A stretch of 64,000 bases of DNA from Marinobacter sp. es.042 (GTDB lineage: Bacteria > Pseudomonadota > Gammaproteobacteria > Pseudomonadales > Oleiphilaceae). Location: assembly GCF_900188315.1 (NCBI RefSeq), contig NZ_LT897781.1, positions 1,302,001 to 1,366,000 of the forward strand. Direction: 5' to 3'. The notes beneath the pieces are model-generated. The model had not been told where the DNA came from. It did not search any database and saw only the letters and a program-made list of their open reading frames with translations. Below are positions 48,361 to 64,000 of the stretch, in pieces. Both the position numbers and the translations under genes were made by a program. Positions within the stretch are counted from its first letter, which is position 1, and each line of letters begins with the position of its first letter.

Positions 48361-48930
48361 CTAACCCTGTTCAAACTCCCGAACCAACTCCTGCAGGAAA
48401 TACAGCCCGGCGGAACTCAGGAAACAGCGCCCTGCACCGGCACGGAACAGGAGATGACGTTTATCGAGGTAATCCAGGGCTTCCGGAAGGCCTTTCTCAA
48501 ATCGCGCAGCCCGCAGGATCTCCTGATATTCCTCATCGCTGGCCAAGGCCGAAAGGTCTTGCTCATTCAACCCGGCATCGGGCCGGCCAAGGTATTCAAG
48601 ATCCCGACCGCTGCGTGCGAAATAGCGCCCGATCAGCAGCAGGATCACCTGCACGCGGAAGGCGTTCTCGTCGTGCTCTTCATTCTCCTCGTCACTGCTT
48701 TCCTTAAGGAAGAAAAACGCGCCGGTTTCGTTGAACACCAGCTCGCTACCCAGGTGCTCATAGAAGGTCCGGAAATGGGACAAATGGTTATACAGCAGGT
48801 TGTAGAGCGGATTGGCACGCAGCTCTGAGCGGTTGCTGTCCCACACATCACGCACAATCACCCGGCCGGCCTGGAATTCCCGGTAGATGGCAGCGCTGTG
48901 GGCCGGGAGGATTTCTTCAAATTCAGACAT
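48361..48930 (-). CDS. jetB: Wadjet JetB / MksE-type subunit
   Basis: 189 residues. A winged-helix-type acidic protein (LYNLLYNHLSHFRTFYEHLG, core NHLSHFRTFYEHLG; FFFLKESSDEENEEHDENAF; ILLLIGRYFARSG) that fits JetB/MksE (DUF4194-like) by size, content and position. It binds the kleisin in the SMC complex. ATG 48930 overlaps the JetA stop by 8 bp. Last gene of the operon in transcription order D-C-A-B. Confidence 0.8.
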   Translation of the reverse strand: MSEFEEILPAHSAAIYREFQAGRVIVRDVWDSNRSELRANPLYNLLYNHLSHFRTFYEHLGSELVFNETGAFFFLKESSDEENEEHDENAFRVQVILLLIGRYFARSGRDLEYLGRPDAGLNEQDLSALASDEEYQEILRAARFEKGLPEALDYLDKRHLLFRAGAGRCFLSSAGLYFLQELVREFEQG

Positions 48931-50323
48931 TCTGTTGCTCCAGGCGACGCTTTCGGTAGACAAACTGTTCACTGTCGGATGACTGATCGAGGATTCGGAA
49001 GCGATTGGTAGTCACCACCTGCAAGCCCTCGGGCGGCGAGTTTACCAGCCGGTTCAACGCCGCCAGCAGGTCCGGGAAGCGATAGCCCGGGATGAAGCCG
49101 TCCAGGCGCCCGTGAAGCTCACGTACCAGATCGGTTGTTGGCCGCAGCTCCAGAGTCTCCAGCCACTGATAGAGCTGGTTGATGCGCTGGACATCAATCC
49201 GGGTATGGCGACCACTGCCATCCACTTGCTGAAGAACCGGCACTTCAGCCTTGCGGCGGAGGTCGTTCAGGCGCAGGTCCAATTCGCTGAACAACAGCTG
49301 GTAGTAGCTGGACGATTCACCGAAGGCGTAATGTTTCGGGCGTTGCTGGGCCCGAAGGCCGATCAGAAAACCGGTGCTGCGGGCAAAGTCTCCACCCTCC
49401 AGCCACTTTCGTTTAAGGCTGAGAGTCTCGGTTTCCCCCTTGAGCTCCTGCAGCTTACCGTAGAAATGCTCCATGGCGTTGTACTGGACCATGCCCTGGC
49501 GCGTCTTGCGCAGGAAGTGCTCCACCTCCTGGGCCACCGCCTGAATGGGTTTGTACAGGGCGTTCAAGCTGATGGAGGAACGGAACAACTGGTCTGCCAG
49601 GCTGTGATCGCTGTGATTTTCCAGCAACCGCACCATCGCTTCCAGGGTTTCGAACAGGTTGCTGCCATCCGGCAGCCGTGTATCCGGGTTCAGAAACACC
49701 AGGGTCGGCTTGATGTGGCGCTCGTACAGGGTAACGATCTGCTCAAACAGGTTCTGGCGGAACTCCAGGAATTTCTCGGGCGCCCGGCTGGCGTCGCCGG
49801 AGAGATCCGCAAGCTGCGCGCTGATGGTCTGCATGCGCAGGACATTCTGCCGAAGCAAACCGATGAGCTGGCTCACCCGCTCGTTCAGATCATCCCTCAG
49901 TTCGGTGTAGTCCGGGTCCGCGTCGCTGAAAGTGCTGGTCTCGAGCCGATTGCGCACGTCCCTAAGGGTTACAAGATGGCCACGAAGGCGAGCATCCGTC
50001 AGTTCCTGGTACAGCGAGGCGTTGCAGGCGCGCATCAGGTTGATCAGGGCATCCTGAAACACCAGGCGCCGCTCACCTTCGGCCTTGATGATGTCGATCA
50101 CCAGGCCGCTGCGGAACAGATTGTCGGTATTCAGTGCCAGACGCACCCGATCCCGGTCAGCGTTGCCAAGGGTGCGGGTGTAGTCCATCACCTCGGCTAC
50201 CAGATCGCTCTCACGGATATACCGGGCTTCGTTCCGATCCATCCGTTCAATCATCCGGAACAAGATCTTCGGGTGCTCGAACAGCAGCCGGGTGGTATCC
50301 AGGGTGCTGAAGCGTTTACTCAT
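48923..50323 (-). CDS. jetA: Wadjet JetA / MksF-type kleisin subunit
   Basis: 466 residues, mostly helical. The opening RLLFEHPKILFRMIERMDRNE and later ETLEAMVRLLENHSDHSLADQLF (core MVRLLENHSDHS) match the DUF3375-type kleisin JetA/MksF, which closes the SMC ring through the N-terminal winged helix and a C-terminal cap-binding part. Overlaps jetC by 8 bp (ATGAGTAA) and jetB by 8 bp (ATGTCTGA). The system identity rests mainly on the four genes together. Confidence 0.82.
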   Translation of the reverse strand: MSKRFSTLDTTRLLFEHPKILFRMIERMDRNEARYIRESDLVAEVMDYTRTLGNADRDRVRLALNTDNLFRSGLVIDIIKAEGERRLVFQDALINLMRACNASLYQELTDARLRGHLVTLRDVRNRLETSTFSDADPDYTELRDDLNERVSQLIGLLRQNVLRMQTISAQLADLSGDASRAPEKFLEFRQNLFEQIVTLYERHIKPTLVFLNPDTRLPDGSNLFETLEAMVRLLENHSDHSLADQLFRSSISLNALYKPIQAVAQEVEHFLRKTRQGMVQYNAMEHFYGKLQELKGETETLSLKRKWLEGGDFARSTGFLIGLRAQQRPKHYAFGESSSYYQLLFSELDLRLNDLRRKAEVPVLQQVDGSGRHTRIDVQRINQLYQWLETLELRPTTDLVRELHGRLDGFIPGYRFPDLLAALNRLVNSPPEGLQVVTTNRFRILDQSSDSEQFVYRKRRLEQQNV

Positions 50324-53255
50324 CCACCGGCTCCATCAGGCTAGCCTGGGTCTGGTCAGCCCAGTGGCTCATGGCCTCGCCGTTGGTGAAGCCCTCGGCC
50401 CCACCCCAGAACACCAGGGTGCGCTGCGGGCTGTAAGGCTTCGCGGTGCGCATCTGCCCTACTTCCAGGTGCCGGCCGATCAGGTAAATCACTTCCGCGC
50501 TGGCGCTATGAGTGGCGGCAGAGAACAGGTTGAAGCCCTGATTGCGTAACCGCTCCAGCAGCGAGGGCATCTGGCTGATGTCCACGCTGGCCAGCTCATC
50601 CAGCACCATGGGGAAAGACAGCTGAACGCCCGGGTACAACACCCGTTTCAGCAGCCGGTACACCAGTTCCAGATTGATCAGTGCCGTAGTGGAGGTGGAC
50701 TGCCCCTTCTTGTCGAGGCTTGTGGCGTTTTCCTTCCGGGTTCTGTAGGAAATTCCGGTGATCACCTTGTCCATGGTCAGGCGCTTGCTGCCGCCCTCCC
50801 CGAAAAAGTCCGCCACGAACACCCGCAAACGGTCATAGAACGCGTCCGACTGCAGCTGGTTGCCATAGGGGTCGATGTTGTTCGCTTCTTCCACCAGATT
50901 GCGGAATTTCGGATCGGTATGAATATCCACGCGGATTTCCACCAGATCGTTGATGCGCACGCCTTCCAGCTCACGGTTCAGTTGCGCCTCGAAACGGGCA
51001 ATGTGCTCGTGGTTGGATTTCAGGGCCTGCCGGTAGCTGGCCACGGTTTCATTGTGGATACCCACCTGCTGCTCAAGCACATTCCAACGCTCCGCCATGC
51101 CGGCAAACAGATCTGAGAGGCCTTTGAACGTTTCCCGGATAGCCGATGACGCGGGGCTGTCTTTCTGCAGTTCGCCTTCGGTATCTTCGTGGATGCCGAG
51201 ATACACGAACTGGCGAAGGTGGTCGAGGATACTGCGACGGCGCTCCTCCAGGTCGTCCAGCTGGGTTTGCAGATCGTCAAACGCAGCCACAGACTCCTGT
51301 TCGATGTCCAACGGCTGTTCTGCTTCCACCGCTTTCAGATGCGGGAACCGGTGCTCTACCGTGCCAACGCTCCGGCTGAGGCCTGCCAGCTCACGCTCCC
51401 GCTCCTCAATACGCTCTTTTTCGGCCCTGGCTTTGGCGGCCTTCTGCTGCACTGCATCCTGCTTTTCCTGCTCCAGCCGGGCCTGCTCTTCCAGCTTGGC
51501 CAGCTGCTCCTCCGCCGCCTGCTTTTCCTCGGTAGCGTCCCGAAGAGTGGTCGCGGCGGCCGGGAAACGCTGCAGCGTTTCCAGATCTTTCTCGATGGCA
51601 CGGATTTCTTTCTCGGTGCGCTCAATCAACCGTGGCCGATCATGTTCCTGATTGGCAGTGTCCGCCAGCTCGGCCCGCTCCTTTTCCAGCCCATGAAGCT
51701 CACCTTCGATATGCCGCCGCTGCTCTGCAAAGTCAGTCTGCCGCGCTGGCTGGGCCTGATATTCGGCATCGAACCAGTCAAAGCCTTTATCAGTAGGCAC
51801 AAACAGCCGGGCGAATGCCTCGATGGCCGCCTTGCTGTCGGCGTCCAGGTCCTGGCCCGGGCTCGCCATCACCAATCGGGGGTCCACGGACCGCAGCGGT
51901 CCGGCGGTGGCCTCGTCCAGCTGATTCTGAAGCTGCCAATGTTGTTTGCTTTCCCGTTCCTTCAGGGATTCCAGCTTGCGCTCAAGCTCCTGCTTCTTTT
52001 TCTGGATCTGCTCCAGACGGATCTCGGCCTGGGCGGCACTTTTCAGGGCGGCCAGGTGCCCTTTCTTGCTCTCGAGTTCCTCTTTCTGGATCTCCTCGAT
52101 TTCCTGCAGAGTCATCTCGCCGTATTGGGAAACCAACAGATCGCCGTCTTTCTGATTCTGCTCGGCCTGCTTGATACGCCGATCGGCGGAACGGATCTCG
52201 CCCTTCAGGCCGCTGGCGTCCTGCTCCAGCTTTTTCAGAGCCTGCAGCACATGGCGCAGCGTCTCGTTCTGCTCGTTGAACGCCTCCACCGCGGCTTTGC
52301 GCCTTGCGCCAATATCCTGCAGGGCATGGCTCACACCATCGCGAAACGCGGCAAAATCATGCTGGCTGCGAAGCAGCGTTTGGTAGGCCTGATAATCCTT
52401 CTGGAGCTTTTCAAACCGTGAACGCTCTTTCTCGATTCTCGTGAGCTGGGTTTGCTGCTGCTTCAACTGGTCGTGGCGATTGAGAAAGTCGTCGATGTTG
52501 AAATCGAAGGCATCGTCGGCGAACTTCTTGTCTGCCTCGATAATGCTGGCCACCGCATTGGACATGGCCTGATCGTCTGCCTTCATCTCAAACAGCAGCA
52601 GGATCAAGGTGCGCAGCGACTGCACCCGGCGCTCGTCGGACTCACCCAGGGGCAGCAGGGAATAGCGAACCGCATCGGCGTTCATCAGCTCGCTGCTATA
52701 CAGCATCTGTTTGAGTTTGGCCGAGTCATTCACCAGCCGGGTTTCTTTGGAGCGCTTTTTCAATGCCTCGGACAAACGGCTGAACGACAGCTCCGGCACG
52801 GCCTGGCCTATGCCGTCTTCATCATTTCCATCCCAGAACAGTGGCCGCAGCTGATCGTAGGCCACCGGCACAAAAGCACGGCCATAGCTGAGCTGGCTGG
52901 CGCTGTCCCGATACAGGATCTGGCAATGCACCCCGGCCGGGTTCTCGGCTTCCATGATCAGGAAACTGAACTGGCTGGGAAAGTAATGCTGGTAGCTTTC
53001 CTCGTTGGTGTAAAAGCTACCAGCGCTGGCATTGCGGAACGCGAACTTCTTGCGGCTGTTCTTGAAGTTGTTTTCTGGCAGCAGAAACAGCCGCAGACTG
53101 TTTAAGAGGCTGGATTTACCCAGGTTCCCCGGGCCCAGGATCAGGCCATGGTTATCCACCGGAATTTCCACGTAACAGAAGCCGGCGGAATCCACCAACA
53201 CCAGACGGCGAATACCAAAATTGAAATTGCCTGGGCTCCCCTGGGAGTCACTCAT
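50316..53255 (-). CDS. jetC: Wadjet JetC / MksB SMC-type ATPase
   Basis: 979 residues with MukB/SMC layout. N-terminal Walker A GPGNLGKSS (41-49), then two long coiled coils (~270-460 and ~560-730, rich in QKKQELERKLES-type heptads) around a hinge, and a C-terminal head with GQSTSTTALINLE as signature loop and Walker B FPMVLDELASVD (Asp886-Glu887). It would load onto and extrude circular DNA, and with JetD cleave small plasmids. Shorter than many JetC proteins (~1,100 aa). Confidence 0.88.
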   Translation of the reverse strand: MSDSQGSPGNFNFGIRRLVLVDSAGFCYVEIPVDNHGLILGPGNLGKSSLLNSLRLFLLPENNFKNSRKKFAFRNASAGSFYTNEESYQHYFPSQFSFLIMEAENPAGVHCQILYRDSASQLSYGRAFVPVAYDQLRPLFWDGNDEDGIGQAVPELSFSRLSEALKKRSKETRLVNDSAKLKQMLYSSELMNADAVRYSLLPLGESDERRVQSLRTLILLLFEMKADDQAMSNAVASIIEADKKFADDAFDFNIDDFLNRHDQLKQQQTQLTRIEKERSRFEKLQKDYQAYQTLLRSQHDFAAFRDGVSHALQDIGARRKAAVEAFNEQNETLRHVLQALKKLEQDASGLKGEIRSADRRIKQAEQNQKDGDLLVSQYGEMTLQEIEEIQKEELESKKGHLAALKSAAQAEIRLEQIQKKKQELERKLESLKERESKQHWQLQNQLDEATAGPLRSVDPRLVMASPGQDLDADSKAAIEAFARLFVPTDKGFDWFDAEYQAQPARQTDFAEQRRHIEGELHGLEKERAELADTANQEHDRPRLIERTEKEIRAIEKDLETLQRFPAAATTLRDATEEKQAAEEQLAKLEEQARLEQEKQDAVQQKAAKARAEKERIEERERELAGLSRSVGTVEHRFPHLKAVEAEQPLDIEQESVAAFDDLQTQLDDLEERRRSILDHLRQFVYLGIHEDTEGELQKDSPASSAIRETFKGLSDLFAGMAERWNVLEQQVGIHNETVASYRQALKSNHEHIARFEAQLNRELEGVRINDLVEIRVDIHTDPKFRNLVEEANNIDPYGNQLQSDAFYDRLRVFVADFFGEGGSKRLTMDKVITGISYRTRKENATSLDKKGQSTSTTALINLELVYRLLKRVLYPGVQLSFPMVLDELASVDISQMPSLLERLRNQGFNLFSAATHSASAEVIYLIGRHLEVGQMRTAKPYSPQRTLVFWGGAEGFTNGEAMSHWADQTQASLMEPVDE

Positions 53256-54030
53256 CCAGAATCATCTCCTGTTCCATGAATTTGCCGGTTGCCCGGAAGG
53301 CCTGTGCGAGGGCCATAAAGCCATGGCCCTCCGCCAAGGAAATCGCCCGCGTGAACCGTTCGGTGGTGTCCGGTAGTTTGCGGAACCGGCCAAACCATGG
53401 TTGCCAGTCGCGAGGCTGAACAAAGGTGGCTTTGTCACCAAGAGAGGCTGCAACCGTCGAGAACATTTGCAGACCACCCGCATCATAATCGAATGCGCAG
53501 AATACTTCTTCGTAGCCTTTCAACCAGTCAAGAATTGCGCCCCAAGTTACCCGGTTGCCACCACCCAATAGCACGTCGCACTCCGAAAATGCCAAGCGCT
53601 TGCCCAATGTTTCACTGGCGAAGTCGAGCATCTGCGCATACTGGAAGAAATTCCTCTCGTTCTCCACTACCAGCACCGAACGGGCCCGCTGGAAACCGAT
53701 ATCCACCGATCCCGTTCTTATTACAACTACGTCCGGCCGGCTGGACGCCAACCACTGATGGTAAACGAGAAGAAAACTAACCTCAGTACCATGACGATGG
53801 GAGTTACCCTTTTTCGCGGCGTCTACCCGGCTTACCGGTGCTTGCGAAACACCCTGAAGCTCAGCGAAAGCGCTCTCATCCAGAATCGTGACAAGCCAAC
53901 GATTGGGTTTTACCTTTTCCGCCGCAAACAATTCCCTATGCCGGCGCCGAAACGAATCCGGAAGTTTCTTCAGGAAGGCTTCATAGTTGATAGGCTGGCC
54001 ACGGAGGATTTTGTCGAGGTAGTCGTTCAA
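53248..54030 (-). CDS. jetD: Wadjet JetD / MksG Toprim nuclease, short form
   Basis: 260 residues. A Toprim catalytic pattern is visible: Glu123 in VLVVENERNFF and the acidic pair Asp181/Asp183 in CAFDYDAGGLQMF, equivalent to the DxDxxG of JetD and topoisomerase VI. A helix-rich N-terminus precedes it, but the protein is clearly shorter than the ~400-residue JetD I know, which has an additional N-terminal DNA-arm region. The start is read as TTG 54030 because an in-frame stop lies just upstream. First gene of the operon and 8 bp overlapped with jetC. Confidence 0.75.
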   Translation of the reverse strand: MNDYLDKILRGQPINYEAFLKKLPDSFRRRHRELFAAEKVKPNRWLVTILDESAFAELQGVSQAPVSRVDAAKKGNSHRHGTEVSFLLVYHQWLASSRPDVVVIRTGSVDIGFQRARSVLVVENERNFFQYAQMLDFASETLGKRLAFSECDVLLGGGNRVTWGAILDWLKGYEEVFCAFDYDAGGLQMFSTVAASLGDKATFVQPRDWQPWFGRFRKLPDTTERFTRAISLAEGHGFMALAQAFRATGKFMEQEMILDE

Positions 54031-60505: not shown

Positions 60506-62188
60506 CTAAACGCCTAACCATTCAGCCAGCTGAAGATTTGTCTTAAGCCTCAATCGCTGCTGAAGCATCCCCTCAAACACACCTTCCAGGGTTCGCTCAT
60601 GCCCCAGCAATGGCAGCGAGGCCTCAGCCTCTGAGAAGAACTGCTTTTCACGAGGAGTGCCCACGATGGCTTGCTCCCACCAGTTAACCACTCGAGGATG
60701 CGCTTCCTTGAGCAGCAGGTCCCCGGGCAGCTTTTCGGACTTCGAAGCATTCGCCGTATGAGTCGATGGCATCAGATTCCAGAGATCGTTGTTGTTCCAT
60801 CGGGACCATGGAAAACAGTGGTCGACGTCAAACTGCTTAGCTTTGAGGTTTTGGGCCGTCCACACGCACTCGACACGACCAGTCTCAAGCTGCTGGTTAA
60901 TGAGCTGGCGGACAGGTGACGTATCGCGCCGACCTTCAACCCACTGCAAACCACGATGATAGTCATCAATGCGGTAACGCAGATCCCAGCTACCCATCAA
61001 ATCAATCCATTCATTAACAATCGCTGGCTCGATCCAGCATGCATAGCGACTGAATGCATCCCAGAGAAATGAGGGAACACGGAAGGTACCGAATCTGGAA
61101 AGCGTTGCTTTATCCAAACGCACGGGCGCCTTCTTGATGGTCATCCTGACCGCACCGCCCTCGAAGACCGGGCGGTTACTGCCGGGCCAAGTCGTAAAAT
61201 GGGCAGGATTCTTAAGAATAGTCGAGCAAGCATCCCGGATAGCGCGGAGCACCACCTGGGCAACATCCGCCGACAGCGACTTACCCACTCTGAAATCTAG
61301 AGGTGTGAATCTCTGCAGCTTGAAGAAATCCTCGGTGGCAAAGCCATAGCCTCGAGTACCTGGCGCCTGCCTAAGCTGATGCCGGAGAACCAGAGGGTGA
61401 TAAAGCATAATCCAGAACAGTCCGACCGCCCCAAGCGGAATATCCACCCAGTCATCATTACGCTTGAGCGCCAGACCGGGGGCACCGTCAGCAATCCGGA
61501 CTAGAGTTCGCAGTAGACCCAACTTGTAAGTCGAGGACTTATTATCATTTACGATGATGTGACGGACAGTCGGCAATGCGCCTGTGCCATCGTCTGCCAA
61601 CCGAAAAACCAGAGTCTCCCAGGACACTTCATCCCTCTGGAGTTCATCCTTCCGACGCCCAACAGGCAACGAAAGCGGGATCAGGGCGCGGCGTTTAGCA
61701 AAACCCTCCAGCTCTTCCCTACTGACATCGTAGAAAACGCGCTCGCCATCACCGGGCCCATGCCGAAGCGTAATTACCAGCATTCCACCGGGTGCCAGAA
61801 GCTCAGTCAGGATGCGAAAAGCACGTTCACGATCGGAGGGCGGGATATGCATCCAGACAGCGGAAACAAGAATAAGATCGAAGCGATAGCTCAGCTTCCG
61901 GATCTTACCTAGATCGGGCAATTGATCGTCTAACCAGTGAATGCTCTGATTGTGAGTGGCGGCCTGCCCCAAGTCGCGTAGGCCCGCCGCAGGCTCTACC
62001 GCGACAACGTCCCAGCCCCGTGCTGCAAGAGCGCTGGAATCGCGACCGCTGCCTGCGCCGACATCCAGAGCAAGGCCTGATTTATCGCCAAGGAAGGAGA
62101 GCCAGTCTTGATGAACCTGTTCGAAGGTCAGGGACTGGTATTGGGTAAAGAAGTTTTGGGCGTTTTTGTTGTAGGGACCGTAACTCAT
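60506..62188 (-). CDS. Class I methyltransferase fused to HNH endonuclease
   Basis: 560 residues. N-terminal domain: SAM motif LDVGAGSGRD (41-50) and acidic AVEP, then LVSAVWMHIPP and LAPGGMLVITLRHGPG, a small-molecule/TehB-type methyltransferase without the DPPY/NPPY of DNA methyltransferases. From ~205 on the segment NDNKSSTYKLGLLRTLVRIA (core STYKLGLLRTL) is typical of an HNH endonuclease family; the HNH lies at Asp456-His457, Asn471, His477, Asn480, Lys483. The ATG 62188 overlaps the helicase stop by 4 bp, which fixes the start; a longer frame to 62218 exists. Confidence 0.82.
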   Translation of the reverse strand: MSYGPYNKNAQNFFTQYQSLTFEQVHQDWLSFLGDKSGLALDVGAGSGRDSSALAARGWDVVAVEPAAGLRDLGQAATHNQSIHWLDDQLPDLGKIRKLSYRFDLILVSAVWMHIPPSDRERAFRILTELLAPGGMLVITLRHGPGDGERVFYDVSREELEGFAKRRALIPLSLPVGRRKDELQRDEVSWETLVFRLADDGTGALPTVRHIIVNDNKSSTYKLGLLRTLVRIADGAPGLALKRNDDWVDIPLGAVGLFWIMLYHPLVLRHQLRQAPGTRGYGFATEDFFKLQRFTPLDFRVGKSLSADVAQVVLRAIRDACSTILKNPAHFTTWPGSNRPVFEGGAVRMTIKKAPVRLDKATLSRFGTFRVPSFLWDAFSRYACWIEPAIVNEWIDLMGSWDLRYRIDDYHRGLQWVEGRRDTSPVRQLINQQLETGRVECVWTAQNLKAKQFDVDHCFPWSRWNNNDLWNLMPSTHTANASKSEKLPGDLLLKEAHPRVVNWWEQAIVGTPREKQFFSEAEASLPLLGHERTLEGVFEGMLQQRLRLKTNLQLAEWLGV

Positions 62189-64000
62189 GCCGCCGCCAGC
62201 TTCGCTGCCTGCTGCCACATAAAGTTCGGCATCGGCGTTCGGAGTTTCCAGGTAATACTCATCGGCTGGGAACCGGTGTGAGACACGTAATCCACCTCAC
62301 CATAATTCACAAACCCCATCGTGCGACCATATTCGTCTTTCGCCTGCTCTCTTACAAACAAGAACAACCGCTTGTTGATGGCTTGGTGTTGAATATAGTC
62401 CTTCCCTTTACCACGGTCAGGCCGGGAACTGTTTTGCGACTGCCAGTGGAATAACTGCTCATTGATGGCGTAGTCGTGGTACATAGTGGTTGGGGAGAAC
62501 TGCTTTTCGTTTTTGTCCAAGGTGACAAACAGCAGCTCAATATTTTGATCCTGAATGACATATACACCTTCCCTCGATGGTGGCTGATGCTCGAACGTCA
62601 TCGCACCAAAGCCAACCAGAATCTGCTCTCGGGAATAGCGGGCGTGCAATCGTAGCGGGACTTCCCGCAACTCCGGCATCGCCGGCTGCTCGTGTTTGGT
62701 TTTCGCCAATTTCCAGTCGAGCACGTCCACCAGCTCCTGTTCCAGCCCCAGCTTGCTGAGTCCTGCCAAGCCTTGTGTCAGCGAATCAAATTCCAGCTCT
62801 GGCCCTGCTTTCTGCCAGAAGTCGTAATGGCACATGAGTGCCTGGCGACCTTTCGGGTCGTCACACCTAAACCCTGCCTGGCATAGCTTCTTAAGAAACA
62901 GCAGGTACTGGTGATCGTCGCAGATCAAAATCCGATTGTGGATGGCCTTCTTCGCCAGTTTAAACGAGTCATCGGCTCTGTCTTCGTCTTTTGCCTTGCT
63001 CACCAACTCGGCCCAACTGCCCCGTTTGTAGAGTTCGTTCAGGTCGATGTGGGGGTGATGGGTTATGAAGTTCTTCAGCGTGAGTGGCTGAGTGGAATGC
63101 TGTGGGAACTGCCGAACAAGAGACACCAGCCGCTTCATGGTCAGCGTGGCTTGCCGGATGTTGCTCAGCACCATCTCCTGGGTTTTCTTGGTGAGCTCAA
63201 TTCGGCAACCCAGTGGTGCATGGGGAAAGCCCTGCTTCAGTTCTTCCGAAATTGAGCGTTCTGACTTACCCACCAGTGCCCGGAATTTATTGGCGAAATC
63301 ATATTCAGGCCGAGAATTACCAACAAAGTCCAAGACTGTGCAGCAATCTTTGTCGTCAGCAAGGCGTAAACCCCGACCCAGTTGCTGAAGGAAGATGGTC
63401 AGGCTTTCGGTTGGGCGCAGGAATAACAGGGTGTCGACTTCCGGAATATCGACGCCTTCGTTGAATATGTCGACCACACACAGCACGTTGATTTGCCCGG
63501 AGCGAATGGCTTGCTGCTTTTGTTGGCGTTCGTGGCTGTTGTCACTGGTGAGCACATCGGCCTTGATGCCGTGCAACAGGAGCTGCTCCACCATGAAGGT
63601 CGCGTGTTCACGGCTCACACAGAAAGCGAGAGCTTTCATGCTGGCTATATCGGTGACGATTTCCCGCAAGCTGCGCAGAATCTTTTTTACGCGATTCTGG
63701 TTGTGCGTATACAAATTCGTCAACTGAGCAATATCGTAACGCCCACGACTCCAAGGAATGGTGCGCAGGTCGGTGTCATCATCTATTCCAAAGTATTGGA
63801 AGGGGCAAAGGTGGCGGCGGTTGATCGCCTCCGGTAACCGGAGTTCGGCGGCAATCACGCCACCAAAGTCGCTGAGAATATCGCCGCCATCGTGTCGCTC
63901 CGGAGTCGCTGTTAGTCCCAGCAGTATTTCGGGCGAGAAGTGTTCCAATACCGCCCGATAACTCGATGCGGCGATGTGGTGCACTTCGTCGATTACGATA
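62185..64000 (-). CDS. DExH helicase with DUF3427 C-terminus, partial at right edge
   Basis: 604 residues visible; the N-terminus lies outside the window. The first visible residues are motif II (IVIDEVHH), then LTATPERHDGG (motif III), VDIFNEGVDIPEVDTLLF (motif V) and LQQLGRGLRLADDKD (motif VI). The C-terminal part (GVYVIQDQNIELLFVTLDK; HYAINE-like DYAINEQLFHWQSQN) resembles DUF3427 and is found after SF2 helicases that often start with a PLD-type nuclease. Its stop overlaps the methyltransferase-HNH start, so both are in one operon. Confidence 0.82.
   Translation of the reverse strand, partial: IVIDEVHHIAASSYRAVLEHFSPEILLGLTATPERHDGGDILSDFGGVIAAELRLPEAINRRHLCPFQYFGIDDDTDLRTIPWSRGRYDIAQLTNLYTHNQNRVKKILRSLREIVTDIASMKALAFCVSREHATFMVEQLLLHGIKADVLTSDNSHERQQKQQAIRSGQINVLCVVDIFNEGVDIPEVDTLLFLRPTESLTIFLQQLGRGLRLADDKDCCTVLDFVGNSRPEYDFANKFRALVGKSERSISEELKQGFPHAPLGCRIELTKKTQEMVLSNIRQATLTMKRLVSLVRQFPQHSTQPLTLKNFITHHPHIDLNELYKRGSWAELVSKAKDEDRADDSFKLAKKAIHNRILICDDHQYLLFLKKLCQAGFRCDDPKGRQALMCHYDFWQKAGPELEFDSLTQGLAGLSKLGLEQELVDVLDWKLAKTKHEQPAMPELREVPLRLHARYSREQILVGFGAMTFEHQPPSREGVYVIQDQNIELLFVTLDKNEKQFSPTTMYHDYAINEQLFHWQSQNSSRPDRGKGKDYIQHQAINKRLFLFVREQAKDEYGRTMGFVNYGEVDYVSHTGSQPMSITWKLRTPMPNFMWQQAAKLAAA

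Follow-up and report, generated by a model that had tools for sequence, protein, structure and literature searches.

SauUSI, a type IV, modification-dependent restriction enzyme, is a dimer that reads methylated cytosine through an SRA-type C-terminal domain, moves DNA at the expense of ATP and shreds it (PMC7913695). It is a single polypeptide and functions without a methyltransferase (MTase) (PMC3874153). The HNH modification-dependent endonucleases (TagI, the Dnd-linked wHTH/SBD-SRA-HNH proteins and EVE-HNH) combine an HNH nuclease with an accessory domain and reside in restriction or Dnd loci (PMC10853773, PMC7641849). Also in print are HKD-helicases and HNH nucleases as neighbours of Dnd genes (PMC10853773), NUDIX genes next to SauUSI homologues (PMC7641849) and backup effectors accompanying restriction systems, namely BREX and Dnd (PMC12839542, PMC10853773). 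Here we describe two overlapping genes, a SauUSI-type helicase and a fusion of an MTase with an HNH nuclease, in a window of 64,000 nucleotides from Marinobacter sp. es.042 (positions 1302001-1366000 of the single-contig 3.94-Mb genome; coordinates are on the window scale). We propose that they form a two-nuclease anti-invader operon composed of the SauUSI-type helicase and a portable MTase-HNH companion, a reading that we hold to be evenly poised between right and wrong.

The open reading frame (ORF) list of the window contains two minus-strand ORFs here, one at 60506-62218 and a second from 62185 to past 64000. We read the genome beyond the window and found that the second gene continues for another 1.3 kb and encodes 1042 aa (L002:3186-6314:-, window scale 62185-65313). 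The original prediction, made from the letters of the window, had described an SF2 helicase ending in DUF3427 whose gene overlaps an MTase-HNH gene by 4 bp, and both the Pfam matches and the ATGA at 62188-62185 bear this out. It had also expected a PLD nuclease at the helicase N-terminus, which indeed lies in the sequence past 64000 (PLDc_2, residues 168-270). PLDc_2 is followed by ResIII (318-473), Helicase_C and DUF3427, in this order. The expected HxKxxxxD motif was found only in part: H222-A-K224 and a GSSN at 240-243 are present, while L229 stands in place of the acid. This position is variable among the relatives inspected, and several lack the acid. The SF2 ATPase in the middle of the protein is well defined (ResIII 1.4e-39, GTGKT at 350-354, DEVH at 442).

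PADLOC assigned the helicase to mREase_IV (PDLC03659), type IV methyl-directed restriction, with 754 bits (4.3e-227), and its best solved relative is SauUSI (7clg, E 7.8e-83 over residues 142-671; accession 7CLG is the SauUSI structure, PMC7913695). The defence role that had been suggested for it agrees with both matches. As in SauUSI, a PLD nuclease, an SF2 ATPase and a DUF3427/SRA-type target domain are united in one chain. In contrast to SauUSI, the Marinobacter helicase has an extra N-terminus of about 118 residues, which precede the PADLOC match, lacks the acid in the HxK motif, matches DUF3427 only at model positions 80-278 of 280 (PF11907) and is in an operon with the MTase-HNH gene. 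These matches make the helicase a PLD-SF2-DUF3427 protein of the known SauUSI kind, and from family knowledge its expected role, like that of SauUSI, is to restrict DNA carrying modified bases. A housekeeping helicase was considered and rejected: RadD equivalog (105 bits, cut-off 720) and UvrB (25 bits, cut-off 743) both stayed below their cut-offs, compared with 754 bits for mREase_IV, and the RecG/UvrB type that would have spoken against the original prediction thus does not apply.

The first ORF encodes the fusion protein. Its length of 560 aa, counted from the ATG at 62188, is the commonest among the homologues listed; residue numbers here count from the upstream GTG at 62218. Pfam matched Methyltransf_23/11/25/12 at about residues 38-151 and HNH_4 near the C-terminus. 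A homologue search gave 3424 proteins at E<=1e-5 among 8000 candidates, and by reading at least 116 of the 120 listed carry both MTase and HNH_4. The fusion is therefore not a sequencing join of two genes, a possibility that had been raised against it. The HNH half alone as query found 1866 proteins at E<=1e-5. The D-H...N...N catalytic residues of HNH_4 nucleases are present, and the S-adenosylmethionine (SAM) residues D52, G54, G56, G58 and E75 were kept together with D466, H467, N481 and N490 in 79/79 aligned copies (80 copies were checked with one gap at each position, the gaps reading as a frame split in L087 and a contig end in L133). In 11 genome pairs the ratio of nonsynonymous to synonymous divergence (dN/dS) was 0.074-0.157 for the MTase half, 0.039-0.112 for the HNH half and 0.035-0.109 for the helicase, with finite dS in 10 pairs for the fusion and in 6 for the helicase and several dS values near saturation. 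Both halves of the fusion are under purifying selection and, going by its homologues, the MTase-HNH fusion is a real family.

The MTase domain had been noted to lack DNA-MTase motifs, and we came to the same result. Pfam gave no DNA-MTase family match in the helicase or the fusion, and LVSAVWMH sits, by reading, where a DNA MTase would have [DNS]PP[YFW] (motif named in PMC10853773). Family matches and motif are both contrary to a DNA-MTase identity, which we rejected. Among solved structures, the nearest are those of TehB and of further MTases that act on small molecules or RNA or are unassigned. The PADLOC mad2 model matches the domain with 47 bits (residues 16-175), a likeness to MADS that extends over only about a third of the model. 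The middle region begins with a TYK-type start common to stand-alone HNH proteins and possibly serves target recognition. The fusion resembles the HNH endonucleases mentioned above in its nuclease with an accessory domain, but differs from them in that this domain is a SAM MTase, the middle region has no Pfam family and the nuclease is of HNH_4 type. Each half is also found alone: HNH without MTase on cyanobacterial and Deinococcus plasmids (23-25% identity), and MTase without HNH on plasmids, in an integrase-bearing E. coli phage and in vibrio phages (the last at about 30% identity). An origin as a phage gene was rejected, as the MTase-HNH profile gave one partial match in viral contigs, and 0/7 phage records with a match cover 80% of the query.

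Table 1. Features of the helicase and MTase-HNH genes on the window scale.
Feature	Position	Strand	Basis
SauUSI-type PLD-SF2 helicase-DUF3427 gene, in-window part 604/1042 aa	62185..64000, gene reaching 65313	-	genome read past window, Pfam, PADLOC, structure match
Helicase_C domain, residues 549-651	63361..63669	-	Pfam PF00271 1.1e-12
DUF3427 domain, residues 836-1035, counterpart of SauUSI target-recognition domain	62209..62808	-	Pfam PF11907 8.4e-30
ATGA start/stop overlap of fusion and helicase genes	62185..62188	-	4 bases read in sequence
MTase-HNH fusion gene, 560 aa from ATG 62188	60506..62188	-	ORF, homologue lengths; alternative 570 aa from GTG 62218
Class I SAM-dependent MTase domain, residues 11-205, DVGAGSGRD and E75, LVSAVWMH	61604..62188	-	Pfam Methyltransf_23/11/25/12, conserved residues
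Middle region, residues 206-440, no Pfam family	60899..61603	-	alignment with Nostoc, Leptolyngbya and Dnd-linked HNH proteins
HNH_4 nuclease motif, residues 455-498, D466 H467 N481 N490	60725..60856	-	Pfam HNH_4 1.9e-8

We surveyed how often the two genes go together. DUF3427 is present in 27 of 61 Marinobacter genomes. Eleven of these have the short helicase of the window type, and at 10 of the 11 loci an MTase gene lies directly downstream, intact or decayed: seven full fusions (one of them, in G043, with a split helicase), an MTase only (G018), a broken gene (G032) and a remnant (G058). Mere co-presence of short helicase and MTase in Marinobacter gave a hypergeometric value of 1.9e-5 (kinship is ignored in all these tests, and the MTase set excludes G038 and G048, which hold short pieces only). 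The other Marinobacter DUF3427 proteins are 15 single chains of the order MTase-PLD-helicase-S24-DUF3427, assigned by length and match with a domain scan on one (the MTase of G055 is frameshifted), and an unassigned fragment in G020. Genomes with the fusion or its MTase and genomes with the single chain do not overlap (overlap 0, hypergeometric 0.0009), and the single chain against the short helicase alone gave 0.03; a mutual exclusion of fusion/MTase and single-chain MTase-helicase in Marinobacter is suggested.

Two draws of 369 and 398 genomes for DUF3427 gave 33 distinct positives, including the window's own genome and Marinobacter G017. Eight of the helicases are of own type (at least 60% identity, the own one included); the fusion adjoins the helicase in G000, G681 and G569 and lies about 5 kb off in G804, and the helicase of G471, at a contig end, is not assessable for it. 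All four clear members of a second helicase type (49-67% along the length of the single-chain helicase) have an MTase, fused in G415 and G017, operonic in G441 and convergent in G184. No MTase was found for the other 21 DUF3427 genomes of the draws, several cut by contig ends and four (G138, G386, G144, G282) judged from one analysis only. Seen from the fusion, such a helicase is present at 18 of 80 loci (10 of 50 once near copies are removed), directly upstream on the same strand at 12 of the 80. Mapped on the fusion tree, helicase linkage requires 11 changes, of which starred branches force 7 or more, and the fusion-linked helicases spread over several clades. Homologues of the pair thus do co-occur, as had been supposed. 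As read from these loci, the linkage is real and repeated, but neither partner needs the other. One dedicated two-protein system, as first imagined, was not supported, since in the loci seen the fusion is mostly without a helicase and the helicase often without a fusion; a part of methylation in target choice or self-protection, likewise put forward at first, is at most conjectural. The genes appear better described as a type IV-like restriction enzyme with a portable MTase-HNH companion common to other restriction systems.

This portability is seen at the 5' end of the fusion, where partners are exchanged. G002 (helicase) and G039 (McrB/McrC-like) are 92.1% identical over 9.9 kb including the fusion, and the homology ends 24 bp inside its 5' end; upstream, G039 has an McrB-like (MrcB_N-AAA_5) and an McrC-like (DUF2357-PDDEXK_7) gene. 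G046 (helicase) and G035, with a divergent NOV_C gene on the other strand, are 96% identical on both sides, and the right junction lies 15 bp inside the fusion. NOV_C proteins are defence nucleases. A true 5-methylcytosine (m5C) MTase stands beside the fusion in G007, G019 and G024, accompanied by an MzaD-like gene in G007, MzaC and MzaE in G019 and an SspH-like gene in G024. The fusion of G037 adjoins a 741-aa AAA protein and a 357-aa protein, which we read as McrB and McrC (weak PADLOC match and none, respectively); a retron-type RT-Toprim protein is also found there (L037:3006-4844, PADLOC RT-Toprim_I-C 3e-221). A next-door partner is present at 14 of the 15 full Marinobacter fusions: helicase at 7, McrB/McrC-like at 2, m5C MTase at 3 and NOV_C at 2; for the fusion of G057, no such partner was found next to it. 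Outside Marinobacter, fusion neighbours include Argonaute (Nitrincola), McrBC (a Roseomonas plasmid), NOV_C (Haliea) and a Schlafen-type helicase.

The divergence of the two genes is consistent with such exchange. Among G000, G029 and G009, dS is 0.02-0.05 for the helicase versus 0.27-0.51 for the adjacent fusion, and by this measure the helicase is the younger of the two at the locus. Over its first 200 bp, the fusion is 94-96% identical among these three helicase-bearing genomes and only 76-78% identical from G000 to the m5C-MTase-bearing G024, G007 and G019, where later windows reach 79-96%. A fusion start that tracks the partner, together with a younger helicase, is the trace expected if recombination had run through the 5' end of a fusion already in place.

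The MTase family extends beyond the fusion. The fusion-type MTase (kind i) and the single-chain type (kind ii) share only 23-36% identity in local alignments, yet in the profile of the other each outscores the 29 other class I MTase loci given from the window's genome (36-76 vs <=24 bits), with one exception (G343, 21 vs 24 bits, profile ii). In G441 and G240, kind (i) forms an operon with a helicase of the second type, the MTase and helicase genes overlapping by 1 and 4 bp. Kind (ii) was found at E<=1e-10 in 724 long proteins, all 120 listed being helicase fusions by reading. It is otherwise fused to the second helicase type, and stands alone upstream of MzaBCDE in G022, at a site matching the single-chain locus of G027: the left flanks are 82.7% identical over 5.2 kb, then G022 has 3.7 kb extra, and the homology stops at the 3' end of the MTase. 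In the DndBC locus of G381, a kind (i) MTase gene is followed after 18 bp by a separate HNH gene (L184 7848-9649), and this pair is, from its sequence, the unfused form of the fusion protein. The Dnd operon of Marinobacter G016 (L059) has a more distant HNH_4 gene, whose neighbour encodes an 865-aa protein that matches an MTase weakly. The single chains (about 1285 aa; Pseudomonas, Marinobacter and others) resemble our locus in that a SauUSI-like helicase forms a unit with a class I MTase from a related subfamily, but have no HNH, carry the MTase fused to the helicase and have a helicase only about 35% identical. Mza shares the related MTase in G022 and the neighbours of the fusion in G019, but works with other ATPases and nucleases, and its usual methylase is a true m5C DNA MTase.

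In the proposed operon, the DUF3427 domain would recognise modified DNA, probably with methylated or hydroxymethylated cytosine; ATP hydrolysis would drive translocation and the PLD dimer would cut, as expected from the family. From its context, MTase-HNH would be a second DNA nuclease, co-translated with the helicase, that adds to or backs up the same attack. Found beside McrBC-like, Mza, NOV_C and Argonaute genes and unfused in a Dnd locus, it would be a portable companion not dedicated to the helicase, and most likely works alongside, or as a backup to, the restriction system found upstream, whatever its type. The least certain step is the role of the MTase, which may, with SAM bound, gate or license the nuclease, or may methylate a partner other than DNA, such as a protein or an RNA. 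A broader and rather unlikely idea is that this class I non-DNA MTase family is a shared licensing subunit of modification-directed restriction (SauUSI-like helicases, HNH, Mza, Dnd), occurring as a separate gene, operon partner or fused domain. It would tie nuclease activity to SAM, whether to its being present or to its destruction by phages, or methylate the nuclease or a DNA-bound partner, and the MTase-HNH gene would be the version with a captured nuclease, able to plug into a restriction enzyme recombining upstream.

Since SauUSI needs no methyltransferase (PMC3874153), one MTase family repeatedly tied to SauUSI-like enzymes through fusion, overlapping operons and partner swapping suggests that a step of control or marking has been missed in modification-dependent immunity. 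A search that covered literature other than subscription papers and supplements gave no description of the MTase-HNH family or of MTase-SauUSI fusions. MTase-HNH appears to be a portable companion of bacterial immune systems that has yet to be described, and it is a concrete gene family amenable to testing in E. coli.

Several observations weigh against an operon whose members act together. In Marinobacter, the helicase of G005 lies on two contig ends with no MTase seen, the HNH half is lost or broken at 3 of 11 helicase loci (G018, G032, G058), the helicase itself is split in G043, and 8 of the 15 genomes with a full fusion gave no DUF3427 match. In the two draws, the own-type helicases of G766, G654 and G602 have no fusion. 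Records of Pseudoalteromonas, Hymenobacter and Peptoclostridium also hold a helicase without fusion. The helicases of G581, G622 and G639, nearer to the second than to the own type (40-48%, over shorter stretches), are without MTase, so the MTase link of the second type is not universal. At 62 of the 80 fusion loci, some on short contigs, no such helicase is among the displayed neighbours, and most of the 80 have no close same-strand partner of known kind. PADLOC gave 141 matches, with redundant models, in 150 near neighbours of fusions versus 61 in 145 far ones (of 157 and 174; 8 helicases were removed from the near set), a modest contrast, and ten further genes near fusions (Vreelandella, Burkholderiales, other loci) had no PADLOC family at 1e-6. 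The genome of the window has an m5C MTase within a cluster read as a complete Mza, which is awkward for an m5C-directed enzyme unless the contexts differ. Moreover, the low dS of the helicase points to its recent spread, and it may be a passer-by at a hotspot. The main rival is built on this: helicase and fusion would be two independent defence genes, and their overlap would stem from a helicase cassette recombining upstream of a resident fusion. We regard this as a serious possibility, although on the improbable side. Each gene is often seen alone, many unrelated partners stand beside the fusion, and both the youth of the helicase and the fusion start that follows the incoming partner fit it well. 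What it explains poorly is that the same kind of helicase is linked 7 or more times over the fusion tree and in 4 of 8 own-type cases, beyond what a random hotspot would yield, that related MTases occur as fusions or in operons with SauUSI-like helicases, and that the reading frames overlap.

Classical restriction-modification, in which the MTase would mark host DNA and the nucleases cut unmodified DNA, seems very improbable. MTase and nucleases do share an operon and a true m5C DNA MTase accompanies three Marinobacter fusions. No base-methylation motif was discerned, though, the nearest solved structures are TehB and its like, phage and plasmid records also contain the MTase with no HNH half, and the cognate DNA MTase of types I-III or IIG was found in neither helicase nor fusion (Pfam, motif IV place). 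An abortive or toxin-like HNH that damages the host, restrained by the MTase domain or SAM and freed by a phage that depletes SAM or blocks the restriction partner, would suit the strictly kept SAM pocket and the several restriction types as partners, as for a restriction guard, and backup effectors beside BREX and Dnd are described (PMC12839542, PMC10853773). We consider it unlikely, because no antitoxin-like partner was seen and G018 keeps the MTase after loss of the HNH.

Other genes accompany the pair. Just upstream of the helicase in G000, G029 and G009 (Marinobacter helicase loci mapped) are genes for an SbcC-like 882-aa ATPase without CxxC and an SbcD-like 391-aa phosphoesterase, which overlap by 4 bp (L002:6627-10447, window scale 65626-69446, minus strand). 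No full-length mad gene was present among 8 products scanned, the 882-aa ATPase giving weak mad8 (31 bits) and mad3 (19 bits) matches. Membership in Pbe/CxC-DndE did not apply either: the helicase scored 120 bits with the best PbeA model versus 754 with mREase_IV, and the ATPase lacks CxxC and scored 21 bits with PbeC; a DndE-like gene was not sought separately. A cluster that looks like Wadjet/Mks, four overlapping minus-strand genes of 260, 979, 466 and 203 aa (48361-54030), lies 6.5 kb from the helicase-fusion pair, and G029 and G009 have parts of it in the corresponding position. It matches MksE (1.7e-22), JetD_C under its cut-off (6e-4) and, weakly, JetB, JetC and JetD models.

NUDIX genes adjoin SauUSI homologues in Halieaceae and G523. 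A Schlafen group 3 helicase with an S24 domain, or a homologue, is beside SauUSI-like helicases in L136, L195 (G352) and L251 (G055), the domain scan being on L136. On a Rhizobium phaseoli plasmid, a kind (i) MTase is fused to an N-terminal stretch with, by eye, two apparent transmembrane helices (L181:3551-4570) and adjoins a DGQHR protein in a phosphorothioation locus. An MTase-only gene is near the integrase of E. coli phage phi458 (L180:2917-3519), and in L189, L192 and L193 such genes are inside runs of small same-strand ORFs resembling integron cassettes. Finally, a 558-aa protein of G418 (L198:7280-8956) seemingly joins an HNH_4-type nuclease to an S24-like domain, as judged by BLAST matches only.

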